A stretch of 64,000 nucleotides of DNA from Candidatus Brocadia sinica JPN1 (GTDB lineage Bacteria > Planctomycetota > Brocadiia > Brocadiales > Brocadiaceae): assembly GCF_000949635.1 (NCBI RefSeq), contig NZ_BAFN01000001.1:3407052-3471051 (forward strand), in the 5' to 3' direction. The notes below the pieces were generated by a model. That model had not been told where the DNA came from. It made no database searches and was given only the letters and a program-made list of their open reading frames with translations. Position 1 is the first letter of the stretch; the number at the start of each line of letters is the position of its first letter. Made by a program: the position numbers and the translations under genes. Shown piece after piece: positions 21,437-60,421 of this stretch.

Positions 21437-21517
21437 AGGTATTCCCCTTTAAAACCTTTTTCCAAGTATTTTAGTAACTATTTAGTCGGCTCATATAAGT
21501 GGACAGTTGGCATTTTA

Positions 21518-22066
21518 CAGTTGACAGTAGGCAGTAGGCATCCAACTGGTTCTGATACATTATTTGCCATTCGTTGCTATGTATCTATTCCTAAACTGTC
21601 AGAAACAGGTTTTATATTCTTTCTTAGATACTTTTCAGGATTTTCAATCATATAATTTAATAGCTTTCCAGCTTCTGTTGATTTGTTCAATAAATCTTTT
21701 TGGGTTTGTTCATTTATATATTTGCAGTGAAAGGCAAAATCAATCCAAACCTGCGTTTCACTGTTCTCCATATCTGCATCTGATATCTTGCTTACAAAAT
21801 GTGCGGGGTATTGGCGTTTTCTGTATCCTTCAGCAATATTTGAGCAAACCGAACGTGACGACTTTCTGATTTGACTTATTAACGAATAAAGTTCATCTTT
21901 AGGGAAACTTTTCGCAAGGTGATAAATATCCATTGCCAAACAAAACGCCTTTTGTAAATCATTAAATCTTTAAAATTATTGATAGTCGTTGTATCCATTG
22001 TTTATTGTGCCTACTGCCTACAGCTTACTGCTTACCGCCTACTGTTCATGCCCACTGCTTACAGCA
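21518..22066. repeat. Inverted repeats enclosing the first S23 gene
   Basis: Left arm CAGTTGACAGTAGGCAGTAG (21518-21537, continuing GCA) is the reverse complement of TGCCTACTGCCTAC at the right (22008-22021), with further degenerate copies of the same unit (CTTACTGCTTACCGCC) to 22066. The right arm runs into the cheY gene and encodes its last residues (KDAVSSGHEQ). The bounded segment therefore looks like an inserted element that replaced the end of cheY. Confidence 0.7.
21577..21998 (-). pseudogene. Four-helix-bundle protein (S23/23S-rRNA intervening-sequence family), frameshifted
   Basis: The true start is the ATG at 21996-21998 (MDTTTINNFKDLMIYK). The frame then breaks at the CCTTTT run 21948-21953, where one base is missing, and resumes as KAFCLAMDIYHLAKSFPKDE, followed by the family core SSRSVCSNIAEGYRKR and a helix carrying FHCKYINEQT. 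The S23/IVP family is normally encoded inside 23S-rRNA intervening sequences or as stray intergenic copies; its function is unknown. Here it sits between cheR and cheY within a pair of inverted repeats. The shift could be real or a homopolymer error. Confidence 0.75.
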
Positions 22067-22437
22067 TCTTTTTGGCTTTCGCCAAATATATTCCGTAGTG
22101 ACGATACCATACGATCGTCTTCAAACGGTTTTACGACGTAGTCTACTGCACCATATCGAAGGGATTCCATTAATGCGTCTCTCTGGTCAATGGCGGATAT
22201 CATGACAACCTTTGCCTGTTTATCAAAGGCAATGATCTCTTTGAGCCCCTGAATTCCATCTACTTCAGGCATTACAATGTCCATTGTTACTGCATCAGGT
22301 TTCAATTCCTTATATTTTTCTAATGCCTCCTTACCATTACCAGCCTCTCCGGCAATCTCAAATCCATGCCTTGTCAAAATTTGCCTGATTATCATCCTTA
22401 TGACTTTGGCATCATCCACTACTAAGATCTTTTTCAT
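22039..22437 (-). CDS. cheY: CheY-type response regulator
   Basis: Single receiver domain of 132 residues: ILVVDDAKVIRMII, phosphoacceptor Asp in AVTMDIVMPEVDGIQG, the conserved Thr/Ser position in VVMISAIDQRD, and the Lys in YVVKPFE. No output domain, so it signals by protein contact. Its start overlaps the end of cheC by four bases. The last ten residues are encoded by the repeat that bounds the S23 element and probably do not belong to the original protein. Confidence 0.92.
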   Translation of the reverse strand: MKKILVVDDAKVIRMIIRQILTRHGFEIAGEAGNGKEALEKYKELKPDAVTMDIVMPEVDGIQGLKEIIAFDKQAKVVMISAIDQRDALMESLRYGAVDYVVKPFEDDRMVSSLRNIFGESQKDAVSSGHEQ

Positions 22438-25538: not shown

Positions 25539-25965
25539 ATCAAAAATGAAATGTAAAAAATTAAAAATACAGATCAAAATGCAAAGATTATCTCTTCCCT
25601 TTCAAGGTAAGTATACTGGAAGCTAATATATTGGCAATCTCGGTCGTTTCTTTCAAAAGTTTGTTAGCCCTGTTTTTATCGGCTTTGCCTGAATCTCTGA
25701 GTAACCCCAACCAAAATTTGGTCTCGTTGGCTGATTTTAGGGCGTAATTAAAAAAATTGGTGTAATCTCTCCTTGAACTTGCAGCGTTTGCTTCTACCAT
25801 ATTAGCTCCAATACTGGTGGCACTCCGAAGGAGTTGATTACCAATGGTCTCACTGGTTTTCTCTTTCGGCAACTCATCAATAAACTTAATTGCTTCAAGG
25901 GTATATCGATAAATTCGTCTCTTGAATTCATCTTTGAATTTTGATTTTTAACCTTTACATTTATA
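25539..25965. repeat. Inverted AT-rich repeats enclosing the second S23 gene
   Basis: Left (25539-25588) contains ATCAAAATGCAAAGAT and TTAAAAAT preceded by AAATGTAAA; the right (25927-25965), read in reverse complement, contains AAATGTAAA, TTAAAAAT and TCAAAATTCAAAGAT in the same order. The arms therefore face each other across the gene. A gene-free version of the same arm pair is found at 29660-29793. Confidence 0.7.
25588..25947 (-). CDS. Four-helix-bundle protein (S23/IVP family), start unclear
   Basis: The family core is complete: DELPKEKTSETIGNQLLR, SATSIGANMVEANAASSRRD, TNFFNYALKSANETKFWLG, ending SSILTLKGKR. The frame with family-like N-terminal sequence (FKDEFKRRIYRYTLEAIKF) begins after a TAA at 25948-25950 and has no ATG, GTG or TTG before the TTG at 25870-25872. 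So either an unusual start codon is used, translation begins late, or one base is missing upstream. It lies between a chemoreceptor and cheW, bounded by inverted AT-rich repeats. Confidence 0.7.
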   Translation of the reverse strand, partial: KSKFKDEFKRRIYRYTLEAIKFIDELPKEKTSETIGNQLLRSATSIGANMVEANAASSRRDYTNFFNYALKSANETKFWLGLLRDSGKADKNRANKLLKETTEIANILASSILTLKGKR

Positions 25966-31696: not shown

Positions 31697-31766
31697 CCAC
31701 TGATTTCGCAGATTGCACAGATTATAAATATGACTAATAAATCTGTGTCATCTGTGAAATCTGTGG
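31697..31766. repeat. 70-bp palindrome between cheA and the receiver-fusion gene
   Basis: CCACTGATTTCGCAGATTG (31697-31715) with CACAGATTATAA pairs with AATCTGTGTCATCTGTGAAA and TCTGTGG (31738-31766), arms of about 29 bases. The arms contain repeats of the unit CAGATT, a form seen dispersed in other bacterial genomes. Confidence 0.7.
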
Positions 31767-39618: not shown

Positions 39619-40151
39619 CATTTTAAGCTTGAGCGTGCCCAACGAAGGGTAGCGCCTACTAACGGGTGCAAGTCCCGTCATGGCAAAAGCCGGAAGCCAT
39701 GTAGCTTGGATGGCATGGGGTGATGGAAACGTTACCTTTTGAAGCCCATCGACAAAGTGTCGCAAGGCGGCATGAGCAACTATCCGGGTTGTAACGAGAG
39801 TGAACGTAGAAGTAGCCTCGTAAAGATTGATATCCACTGGCCGAACCTCTTCAATTTAGGTGAAGGCAGAACCGATGTATTGATACTGGCGTGACGATAC
39901 AAAGGCGGTGGCGGGGTAGCAGCGGCGACACGGATGGAAAGAGGAGCTATCAACTGGGGAAACCCTCCTTGTCCCTTGCGGAAACGTAAGGAGCAAATGT
40001 ATGCCTTATAAGTTAAAAGGCGAAGTGGGCAGAAAGACAAGAGGGTGGCGGATGAGTCCGTAGTAGTGAAGATGGCAAGGACAGCATAACCTTGCCGGAG
40101 CGAAGGGCTCTGCTGTATCTAAATCTTTCTTTAGAGGTGAGGCAGGGAAGA

Positions 40152-41453
40152 ATGACAAATGCTTCCATAAGTCTGCAGGAACTGAGGAGGAAGATATACA
40201 TCAAGGCGAAGACCGACAAGCACGGGAGGTTTTGGGGATTATACTGTCATATCAGCAAGGATGAACTTCTGAGAGAAGCCTATCGACTGGCAAAGGCCAA
40301 CGATGGAGCACCTGGAATCGATGGGAAGGACTTTGAGGACATCGAGAGGGAAGGACTGGAAGGATTTCTGGAAGGGATAAGGCAGGAACTCCTCGAACGG
40401 ACGTACCGGCCGTTGCCCAACAGACGGGTAGAGATACCGAAAGGCAACGGCAAGACCCGAACCCTTGGAATACCGACGATAAGAGATCGGGTAGTCCAAG
40501 GGGCACTGAAGCTCATACTTGAGCCGATATTTGAGGCAGATTTCAAGGACTGTTCCTATGGGTACAGACCGAAGCGTCATGCACATCAGGCGATAGATCG
40601 GGTGACAAAAGGCATACTCCACGGATTGACCAGAGTAGTGGATGTAGACTTGAGCGGATATTTTGACAACATAAGGCATCACAAACTGTTGGAAAAAATA
40701 GCCAGGAGGGTGCAGGATGATGACATTCTGCATCTTTTAAAACTCATCCTCAATGCGAACGGGCGGAAGGGAGTGCCGCAGGGTGGAGTGATATCTCCGC
40801 TACTATCGAACATCTACCTGAACGAAGTGGATGAGATGATGGAACGGGCACGGGAAGTAACCCGACGTAAAGGATATGATAACCTTGGCTTTATACGGAG
40901 TGCGGACGATATGGTCATACTCGTGCACGGGCATCCGAAAGAGGACTGGTTGCTCCAGAAAGTACAGAAACGACTCAAGGAAGAGCTGGACAACTTAGAG
41001 GTTGAAATGAATCTGGAGAAGACGAAGGTAGTAGACCTCAAAAAGGGAGGTAGTTTCAGCTTTTTGGGATTTGATATACGCCTGAACCGCAATTGGAAAA
41101 GCAAGATCTATGTCAGCAAGACGCCGCGGAAGAAGAAGTGCATTGAAATCGGCAAGAGAATAAGAGCAGTGCTCAAGGCAAACTGGAACAAGCCTTTAAA
41201 AGAAGTAATTCAGGCAGTAAATGCAGTAATACGAGGTTGGGTGAATTACTTTCGGATAGGCAATAGCAACAGTACTTTCTGTAAAGTCAGGAATTATACT
41301 GAGAAGAAGGTGAGACGGTTTGTCACGAAGAGGAAGAAACGCAAGGGCTTCGGCTGGAAGCGGTGGAGTAGGGAGGTAATATATCAGGAATGGGGATTGT
41401 ATAATGATTATCGAATACAATACTTACACCCGAAAACAGCTTCATGTCGATAG
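40152..41453 (+). CDS. ltrA: Group II intron reverse transcriptase/maturase
   Basis: A 433-residue protein starting at the ATG 40152. RT blocks: ANDGAPGIDGKDFED, RPLPNRRVEIPKGNGKTRTL, GIPTIRDRVVQGALK, DCSYGYRPKRHAHQAI, VVDVDLSGYFDNIRH, GVPQGGVISPLLSNIYL, then the active-site block FIRSADDMVIL, where Ser replaces the Tyr of the usual YADD. The X/maturase domain follows (INAVIRGWVNYF-like, WSREVIYQEWGLY). No HNH endonuclease is present. The Tyr change at the catalytic block may lower activity. Confidence 0.92.
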   Translation: MTNASISLQELRRKIYIKAKTDKHGRFWGLYCHISKDELLREAYRLAKANDGAPGIDGKDFEDIEREGLEGFLEGIRQELLERTYRPLPNRRVEIPKGNGKTRTLGIPTIRDRVVQGALKLILEPIFEADFKDCSYGYRPKRHAHQAIDRVTKGILHGLTRVVDVDLSGYFDNIRHHKLLEKIARRVQDDDILHLLKLILNANGRKGVPQGGVISPLLSNIYLNEVDEMMERAREVTRRKGYDNLGFIRSADDMVILVHGHPKEDWLLQKVQKRLKEELDNLEVEMNLEKTKVVDLKKGGSFSFLGFDIRLNRNWKSKIYVSKTPRKKKCIEIGKRIRAVLKANWNKPLKEVIQAVNAVIRGWVNYFRIGNSNSTFCKVRNYTEKKVRRFVTKRKKRKGFGWKRWSREVIYQEWGLYNDYRIQYLHPKTASCR

Positions 41454-41486
41454 GTGTATAATGCCTTGCTGAGAAGGGAACAGGAA

Positions 41487-41519
41487 AGCCGTATGAGGGA
41501 AAACCTCACGTACGGTTTG
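41487..41519 (+). ncRNA. Group II intron domain V
   Basis: AGCCGTATGAGG (41487-41498), a GAAA tetraloop and ACCTCACGTACGGTTT (41503-41518) form the canonical 34-nucleotide catalytic hairpin with the AGC triad and the two-base bulge (CG). Domain VI should follow at about 41525-41565 but its stem could not be delimited by eye. Confidence 0.85.
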
Positions 41520-41623
41520 ACGAGAAGATGCTGGAAATAGGGTATGGTTGAGATATTGTGACACTCTCAAAGGAAACGGAGAGAAACGGGGAACACTAAC
41601 TTCAGCCTGTAGCTACTACGCCA

Positions 41624-41812
41624 GTGTTTTACTCTACCCTTGTCAACCTTGTCTAGCCAATAAAGGATGATAAGGTGGGAATAGTCATCAATCCCTTCCA
41701 AACCATCTGCATAGTTGGTGTCAATGACTATTTCTGTAATAGAGTCCTGCCACCCACCAAACTTTGGCTGTTTAATGGGACTTTTAATATAACCAATGGA
41801 TTTTAATTGCAT
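41624..41812 (-). pseudogene. trmO: 5' part of trmO
   Basis: Reads MQLKSIGYIKSPIKQPKF, DYSHLIILYWLDKVDKGRVK and H, then diverges into the inserted sequence. These are N-terminal landmarks of TrmO. An AAAGGAG site lies just upstream of the ATG. The last family codon is His (41624-41626), which should be directly followed by the Arg-Pro-Gln now found at 39610-39618. Confidence 0.85.
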
Positions 41813-55750: not shown

Positions 55751-55840
55751 AAACAAAGCGATAAAGGCAAACCCTGAGTGATCAGGGGACGCAAAGTAAA
55801 GGGTCTTTAGACTTACAGGGAAGTAGGGATAAAGAAGACA
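55751..55840 (+). ncRNA. c-di-GMP-I (GEMM) riboswitch aptamer, copy 1
   Basis: The aptamer shows the GEMM hallmarks: GGCAAACC (55766-55773), a P2 hairpin CCCTGA-GTGA-TCAGGG, and GACGCAAAG (55788-55796), then a P3 region GGGTCTTTAGACTTAC..GTAGGG. The GNRA-like loop of P2 and the A-rich junctions match c-di-GMP-I RNAs. It sits between a sigma-70 promoter and a terminator ahead of the sigma-54 activator gene. The P1 pairing could not be fully assigned by eye; cGAMP or c-di-GMP preference is unresolved. Confidence 0.85.
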
Positions 55841-55860
55841 GCCTTAATTCAGAAAAAGAC

Positions 55861-55915
55861 AGCCTTACTGCCGGAGATGTTTTTCAGTAAATATCTTTGC
55901 AGTAAGGCTTTTTTA
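55861..55915 (+). terminator. Riboswitch expression platform: intrinsic terminator, copy 1
   Basis: AGCCTTACTGC (55861-55871) pairs with GCAGTAAGGCT (55899-55909), followed by TTTTTT. An inner AGAT/ATCT pair extends it. A partial copy of the 5' stem (GACAGCCTTA at 55837 and 55858) precedes it and could form the antiterminator. It ends eight bases before the activator's ATG, so regulation would be by premature termination. Confidence 0.85.
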
Positions 55916-60284: not shown

Positions 60285-60339
60285 AAATAAAAAAGCCTTA
60301 CTGCAAAGATATGTTTCTAAAATCTTCGGCAGTAAGGCT
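60285..60339 (-). terminator. Riboswitch expression platform: intrinsic terminator, copy 2
   Basis: On the minus strand AGCCTTACTGC (60339-60329) pairs with GCAGTAAGGCT (60304-60294), followed by T6. The stem matches copy 1 exactly and the loops differ. It ends 23 bases before the ATG at 60262. Confidence 0.85.
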
Positions 60340-60421
60340 ATCTTACACTACGCCTTTGTAGTTAAAGACCCTATTACTTTGCGTCTCCCGATCACTCAGG
60401 GTTTACCTTTATCGCTCTGTG
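60340..60421 (-). ncRNA. c-di-GMP-I (GEMM) riboswitch aptamer, copy 2
   Basis: Minus-strand reading: GGTAAACCCTGAGTGATCGG, GAGACGCAAAGTAATAGGGT, CTTTAACTACAAAGGCGTAG. It has the same landmarks as copy 1 (GRYAAACC, P2, GACGCAAAG) with a clear P3 CTAC/GTAG hairpin. The core differs by a few bases (C to T in GGCAAACC), so ligand preference could differ. Confidence 0.83.

Follow-up and report, generated by a model that had tools for sequence, protein, structure and literature searches.

The S23/IVP gene that lies between cheY and cheR in Candidatus Brocadia sinica is, almost certainly, one copy of a widespread unit in which a single gene is enclosed by two facing arrays of short tandem repeats. 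S23 genes in many other operons across bacterial phyla are flanked in this way, by arrays that match their protein subfamily, so the gene appears to belong to a small mobile unit of wide distribution, and the element likely is, or was, mobile. Units of this kind are largely undescribed; their ribosomal RNA version is already known, and a search of open PMC papers found no description of the general gene-plus-facing-array element. S23, a four-helix bundle, and GxxExxY, an unrelated family with the same layout, are both widespread and without known function. We assign a probability of roughly 0.5 to the reading in which rings of S23 recognize the tandem end units at the DNA level and the gene is expressed by read-through of its host operon.

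An S23 gene between facing heptamer arrays in the che operon

On the minus strand of the 64,000-nt stretch analyzed here (the window), the che operon reads cheY, S23, cheR (Table 1). The S23 open reading frame matches PF05635 with E=5e-28 in a profile search and lies above the curated cut-offs of PF05635 (97.8 bits versus 33.8) and TIGR02436 (91.7 versus 24). Facing arms were detected at 21500-21540 and 22008-22048, with the right-hand array extending to about 22065, and these 41-nt arms are 73% complementary, with a 17-nt core at 88%. The sequence-only reading had described an S23/IVP gene enclosed by facing arms, and that arrangement is confirmed for the frame at 21577-21939; the arms are real, though each is a 7-nt tandem repeat (CARTNNN) rather than a unique sequence, and the location was right, though the unit is slightly longer than 21518-22066, running from about 21500 to 22075. 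With up to three mismatches, GCAGTAGGCAGTAGGC has seven matches in the window, every one of them in the two arms, where shuffles give an expectation of 0.18. Comparison with dinucleotide shuffles, with displaced windows and with PhdYeFM control genes excludes chance or base composition as the source of the arms, and an ordinary simple-repeat reading of the arrays is likewise excluded. Beyond the arrays, conservation is convincing on the side of CCAAAAAGATGC, which adjoins the array both at cheY and at an unrelated gene-less site, and weak on the opposite side. The window holds no rRNA match, its S23 has no match to a defence model (PADLOC) at E 1e-3, and no relative of the Candidatus Brocadia pituitae S23 was present among the viral contigs searched. 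An AlphaFold model built from the single S23 sequence reached a pLDDT of 42 and was set aside.

Table 1. Features of the two che-operon S23 elements and their borders (positions in the window)
Feature	Position	Strand	Remarks
Possible outer extension of the element	21451..21495	-	Tentatively part of the element; weak similarity to sequence outside gene-less palindromes (shuffle p 0.006-0.03)
Downstream arm	21500..21540	-	CARTNNN-type heptamers, inverted orientation; + strand: CAGTTGG, CATTTTA, CAGTTGA, CAGTAGG, CAGTAGG
S23/IVP four-helix-bundle ORF	21577..21939	-	PF05635, TIGR02436; weakly DGR Avd NF033474
Expected S23 start up to A-run	21950..21998	-	ATG at 21998; A-run one base short relative to G004, G011 and G003
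Upstream arm	22008..22065	-	Degenerate CARTNNN heptamer array; units on gene strand: CAGTAGG, CAGTAAG, CTGTAGG, CGGTAAG, CAGTGGG, ..
cheY	22039..22437	-	Element contributes last codons (..QKDAVSSGHEQ) and TAG stop
CCAAAAAGATGC	22064..22075	-	Probable element end, abutting the upstream array; also at gene-less palindrome G000:C1:3633232, similar at cheY of several relatives
Second, different S23 element	25541..25965	-	ORF 25588-25872, between MCP gene and cheW; A-rich arms

Frameshift in the window copy and the history of the cheY-cheR junction

The copy in the window is frameshifted and probably decaying. Its A-run at 21950-21953 reads ACAAAAGG, where three relatives (G004, G011 and G003) have ACAAAAAGG; the loss of one A has frameshifted the S23 N-terminus, and reading from the ATG at 21998 leads to a stop after about 40 codons. 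The cheY frame enters the right-hand (upstream) array and ends there at a TAG, and the earlier claim that this arm encodes the last residues of cheY is thereby borne out. CheY ends at about FGEx in array-free genomes and is extended (..QKDAV..) in array-bearing ones, which illustrates how such a unit can rewrite the C-terminus of a resident protein.

Among relatives, Candidatus Brocadia pituitae (G004) has an in-frame S23 gene at this junction with arms as in the window, while four genomes (G011, G008, G005 and G003) keep the arms around decayed S23 genes. In three others (G010, G007 and G006) the array is succeeded by a GxxExxY gene, or by what remains of one, that has arms of its own, G009 has a scar alone, G029 has a gene-less palindrome of a different type, and in G027, G018 and G024 the junction is empty. 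These intact, decayed, gene-less and empty versions, taken with the CheY ends of the relatives, point to an insertion of long standing in the genus that is now decaying in most cases.

Gene-bearing and gene-less copies

The genome that contains the window (G000; 4.08 Mb, three contigs) was searched by sequence pattern and by protein family. Arrays of three CARTNNG units are present in eight of the 11 genomes of the genus, compared with none for the reversed control pattern, and at this strict pattern no Brocadia genome has more than a few array sites. Compact gene-less palindromes with the same arm type were located at G000:C1:3633232, which is absent from all 10 congeners searched; at G007:C7:10393, which G008 shares and which G011 and G012 lack; at G010:C5:88035, which is absent from the seven congeners recovered; and at G009:C1:959656. 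The proposal from the sequence alone was that the gene and its arms may form a mobile palindrome in which the gene is optional, to be checked by looking for further arm copies in the genome and for empty sites in relatives; both exist, the arms are not peculiar to this locus, and the proposal is accordingly supported by gene-less, empty and absent versions. In the S23 paralogues at G000:C1:3966502 and 492164, similarity starts inside the left arm and the flanks are unrelated. A comparison of flanks over 51 loci gave no clear target-site duplication. The second S23 element of the che operon (Table 1) has a paralogue of its own at G000:C1:3603374.

Palindromes of other types were seen as well. 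The window carries, at 31707-31765, two facing units like CACAGANNA with no gene between them, an arm type seen around GxxExxY genes. One intergenic region (site C) holds another type, GGATGAGA.. / ..TCTCATCC, in G008, G005, G004, G006 and G003 (L426, L420, L421, L422 and L430), and its counterpart in G010 holds a CARTNNN palindrome, making the region a hotspot for such units.

Arm motifs follow the S23 subfamily across phyla

Facing arms that beat all 40 shuffles flank 178 of 228 S23 genes (78%), compared with 5/221 and 6/220 windows displaced by 350 and 550 nt, respectively (2-3%), and 0/28 PhdYeFM control genes, with the proviso that some Brocadiaceae loci in the arm counts are orthologous sites and are therefore not independent. 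The same is seen at 51 of 58 GxxExxY genes (PF13366, unrelated to S23), against 3/56 and 0/54 displaced windows. Carriage is broad: all 33 Brocadiaceae genomes searched have both S23 and GxxExxY, 86 of 145 Patescibacteria genomes have S23, and in two sets of plasmid S23 genes, which include cyanobacterial and other ones, arms are present at 7/8 and 9/10. The armed plasmid genes include S23 between cas6 and cas4 and between cas10 and a gene of the cmr3 family.

To characterize the window subfamily, 72 loci were fetched from Bacteroidota, Chlorobiota, Balneolota, Cloacimonadota, Marinimicrobia, Scalindua and others, nearly all of them encoding proteins closely related to the window S23. Of the 67 loci with enough flank, 54 have a CARTNNN array on each side, oriented as expected. 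When close relatives are defined as S23 proteins scoring 100 bits or more against the window protein, 57 of 71 have CARTNNN on both sides, compared with nine of 162 other S23 genes (p=3e-31), and other S23 subfamilies have other arms. The motif thus follows the S23 subfamily rather than the host.

It might be supposed that the palindromes are MITE-like ends that owe their movement to an unrelated transposase or have grown by replication slippage, and that S23 or GxxExxY is carried along without any action on the arms. The sharing of one layout by two unrelated protein families and the existence of gene-less palindromes would fit such a passenger, but we regard it as very improbable, given that the arm motif tracks the S23 subfamily across phyla and that the arm period differs by family, being most often 7 in S23 and 9-10 in GxxExxY.

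The number of units per arm bears on how they may be read. Under lenient counting, the mode in the window subfamily is five (17/55 upstream and 24/55 downstream); a strict count yields four upstream and either two or five downstream; and period-7 arrays have a median length of 5.4 units. The PDB homologues of S23, 2rld and 2gsc, contain five chains, and, as quoted in PMC4990558, a homopentamer of four-helix bundles is reported for Xcc0516. On these unit counts and the five-chain homologues, one arm unit per S23 subunit is put forward as a hypothesis. Subfamily-matched arms across phyla provide a directly testable ligand together with a guess at stoichiometry, five units for five subunits.

DNA-level versus RNA-level recognition

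A different account places the action in RNA, with the arms pairing in the transcript, RNase III removing the S23 segment and the unit spreading through RNA by reverse transcription. Insertion into operons would then be nearly harmless, since the S23 segment would be cut out of the mRNA just as happens in 23S rRNA. The arms do form the outer stem of the predicted fold of the whole strand, which is 2.4 SD better than shuffles (z -2.4), and S23 is related to Avd, an accessory protein of retroelements; furthermore, RNase III cleaves the Coxiella 23S intervening sequence, which is built in the same way (PMC4990558). Against this account, mismatches between arms include G-U and A-C in equal measure (375 versus 328, and at stricter thresholds 167 versus 164 and 109 versus 115), and at orthologous sites, where power is limited, the arms of a locus pair no better with each other than with swapped arms. 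Selection for an RNA stem is rejected on these two results. The lack of a wobble or compensatory signal makes it seem that the motif is conserved and not the pairing, which favors recognition at the DNA level, and we consider the RNA account unlikely, though the most probable of the alternatives. RNA processing of the arms may occur without selection for it. Arms are more alike within a locus across distant loci (p 2e-4), which common origin can explain, and conservation of arms relative to flanks is uneven between groups.

Between co-directional neighbors, S23 genes are placed in the sense orientation in 177 cases and antisense in nine, compared with 67 and 17 for resident small ORFs and 46 and 0 for GxxExxY. 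This sense placement fits expression by read-through and also the RNA account, with its operon-internal sense insertions.

Possible host use and the cas loci

At several shared sites, S23 has a dN/dS of 0.06-0.24 with dS up to about 1, and this purifying selection suggests that some S23 copies are, or were until recently, useful to the host. The same values could be taken to mean that S23 is a host regulatory module which binds arrays near genes and controls operon expression, with its placement reflecting function and not insertion. A 2013 survey counted 18 cases of S23 in cas loci, frequently next to cas4 or cas6 (PMC3936711), and S23 stands between cas6 and cas4 in loci examined here too. 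Yet the neighbors vary from locus to locus, the gene has decayed repeatedly at the cheY junction and the gene-less palindromes are polymorphic for presence and absence, and this regulatory reading consequently appears distinctly unlikely. Of the S23 units in cas loci (L439, L445 and L443), two are on cyanobacterial plasmids between cas6 and cas4 and one separates cas10 from a cmr3 family gene, suggesting that the reported association of S23 with cas genes may be one of insertion.

Relation to known systems

The nearest known relative of the element is the 23S rRNA intervening sequence with an S23 ORF, as in Leptospira and Coxiella. In both systems an S23 ORF sits in the loop of complementary ends, and the likeness noted by the sequence-only reading is real: in the Coxiella sequence, tandem heptamers (GACAGAT) precede the S23 ORF within the terminal stem, in numbers that vary between strains (PMC4990558). 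S23 is also found in rRNA insertions of CPR bacteria (PMC11270868). The window element differs in lying outside rRNA (23S or 16S), within a protein operon, in having arms whose motif varies with and matches the S23 subfamily, and in having gene-less forms and no RNA-pairing signal.

Degenerate heptamer arrays have been described as GGGAATC in Xanthomonas and GGGGA(T/C)T in Nostoc, with mostly four units and 70-75 convergent pairs per genome in Xanthomonas (PMC4692102). They resemble the present arrays in being degenerate heptamers and, in Xanthomonas, in forming convergent pairs; that paper does not mention S23, and the repeats were generally not found associated with mobile elements. A search for Xanthomonas plasmid S23 genes that might link S23 to GGGAATC found none, the matches being mostly cyanobacterial. 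The TAACTGA heptamers of Beggiatoaceae, for which a mobile repeat-binding protein is considered by their author (PMC4679880), are likewise intergenic arrays in some of the same phyla, but they are direct repeats near start codons, and S23 is not mentioned in connection with them.

The homology of S23 to the accessory protein Avd of diversity-generating retroelements (bAvd PF22296, E 1e-8; NF033474, E 3e-6) falls below both cut-offs for the window protein (36.1 bits versus 40 and 27.3 versus 80, respectively), and unlike in those retroelements no reverse transcriptase adjoins S23, whose neighbors are cheY and cheR. In REPIN-RAYT systems, a single gene, encoding an HUH tyrosine transposase, lies between inverted repeats, and gene-less palindromes of the same type are dispersed through the genome. 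The present element is similar in that gene-less palindromes with the same ends occur elsewhere (at G000:C1:3633232 and in congeners); it differs in that its gene encodes a PF05635 four-helix bundle and not an HUH tyrosine transposase, in that short degenerate units in tandem make up its ends and in its low copy number in Brocadia.

A model for the unit

In the reading to which we give about even odds, the unit would be a single-gene element, S23 flanked by facing arrays that each comprise about five units of 7 nt, lodged sense-wise inside a host operon, here che, and transcribed by read-through. Homologues of S23 form rings of five four-helix bundles, and such a ring would read the end units in DNA with about one unit per subunit and bring the two element ends together. 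Strand cutting and copying could be supplied in trans or by host replication; a reverse transcriptase is a candidate for the enzyme in trans because of the relationship of S23 to the retroelement accessory protein Avd. Short gene-less palindromes sharing the arms would be mobilized in trans. No catalytic partner was found for this scheme, copy number in Brocadia is low, sense placement is also expected of an ordinary operon gene, as in the resident ORFs, and the long vertical retention and purifying selection at some sites suggest host use over simple selfish spread.

More broadly, and at a confidence that falls a little short of even, S23 and GxxExxY might be the resident genes of two families within one wide, unrecognized class of mobile palindromes, in which each subfamily reads its own unit at both ends: 7 nt for S23 pentamers, with about five units per arm, and 9-10 nt for GxxExxY, with about three. 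Were this so, many unexplained bacterial heptamer arrays, along with S23 genes of cas loci and 23S rRNA intervening sequences, would be members or relics of the class. The facing, subfamily-matched arms also bring three scattered observations under one frame: the presence of S23 within 23S intervening sequences, its presence at cas loci, and the inverted heptamer arrays of several phyla, for which there was no explanation.

Other observations

Elsewhere in the window there is a group II intron at 39660-41637, about 18 kb from S23, with a reverse transcriptase-like ORF at 40092-41453 (+), and there are two c-di-GMP-I riboswitches at 55757-55876 and 60325-60417. A Howlettbacteria genome (G039, locus L144), a Patescibacteria genome of 0.8 Mb, contains 13 S23 genes. 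Finally, an S23 domain lies inside open frames of 747-779 codons at G020:C1:3442300, G019:C24:33241 and G018:C79:28763, which are possible fusions.
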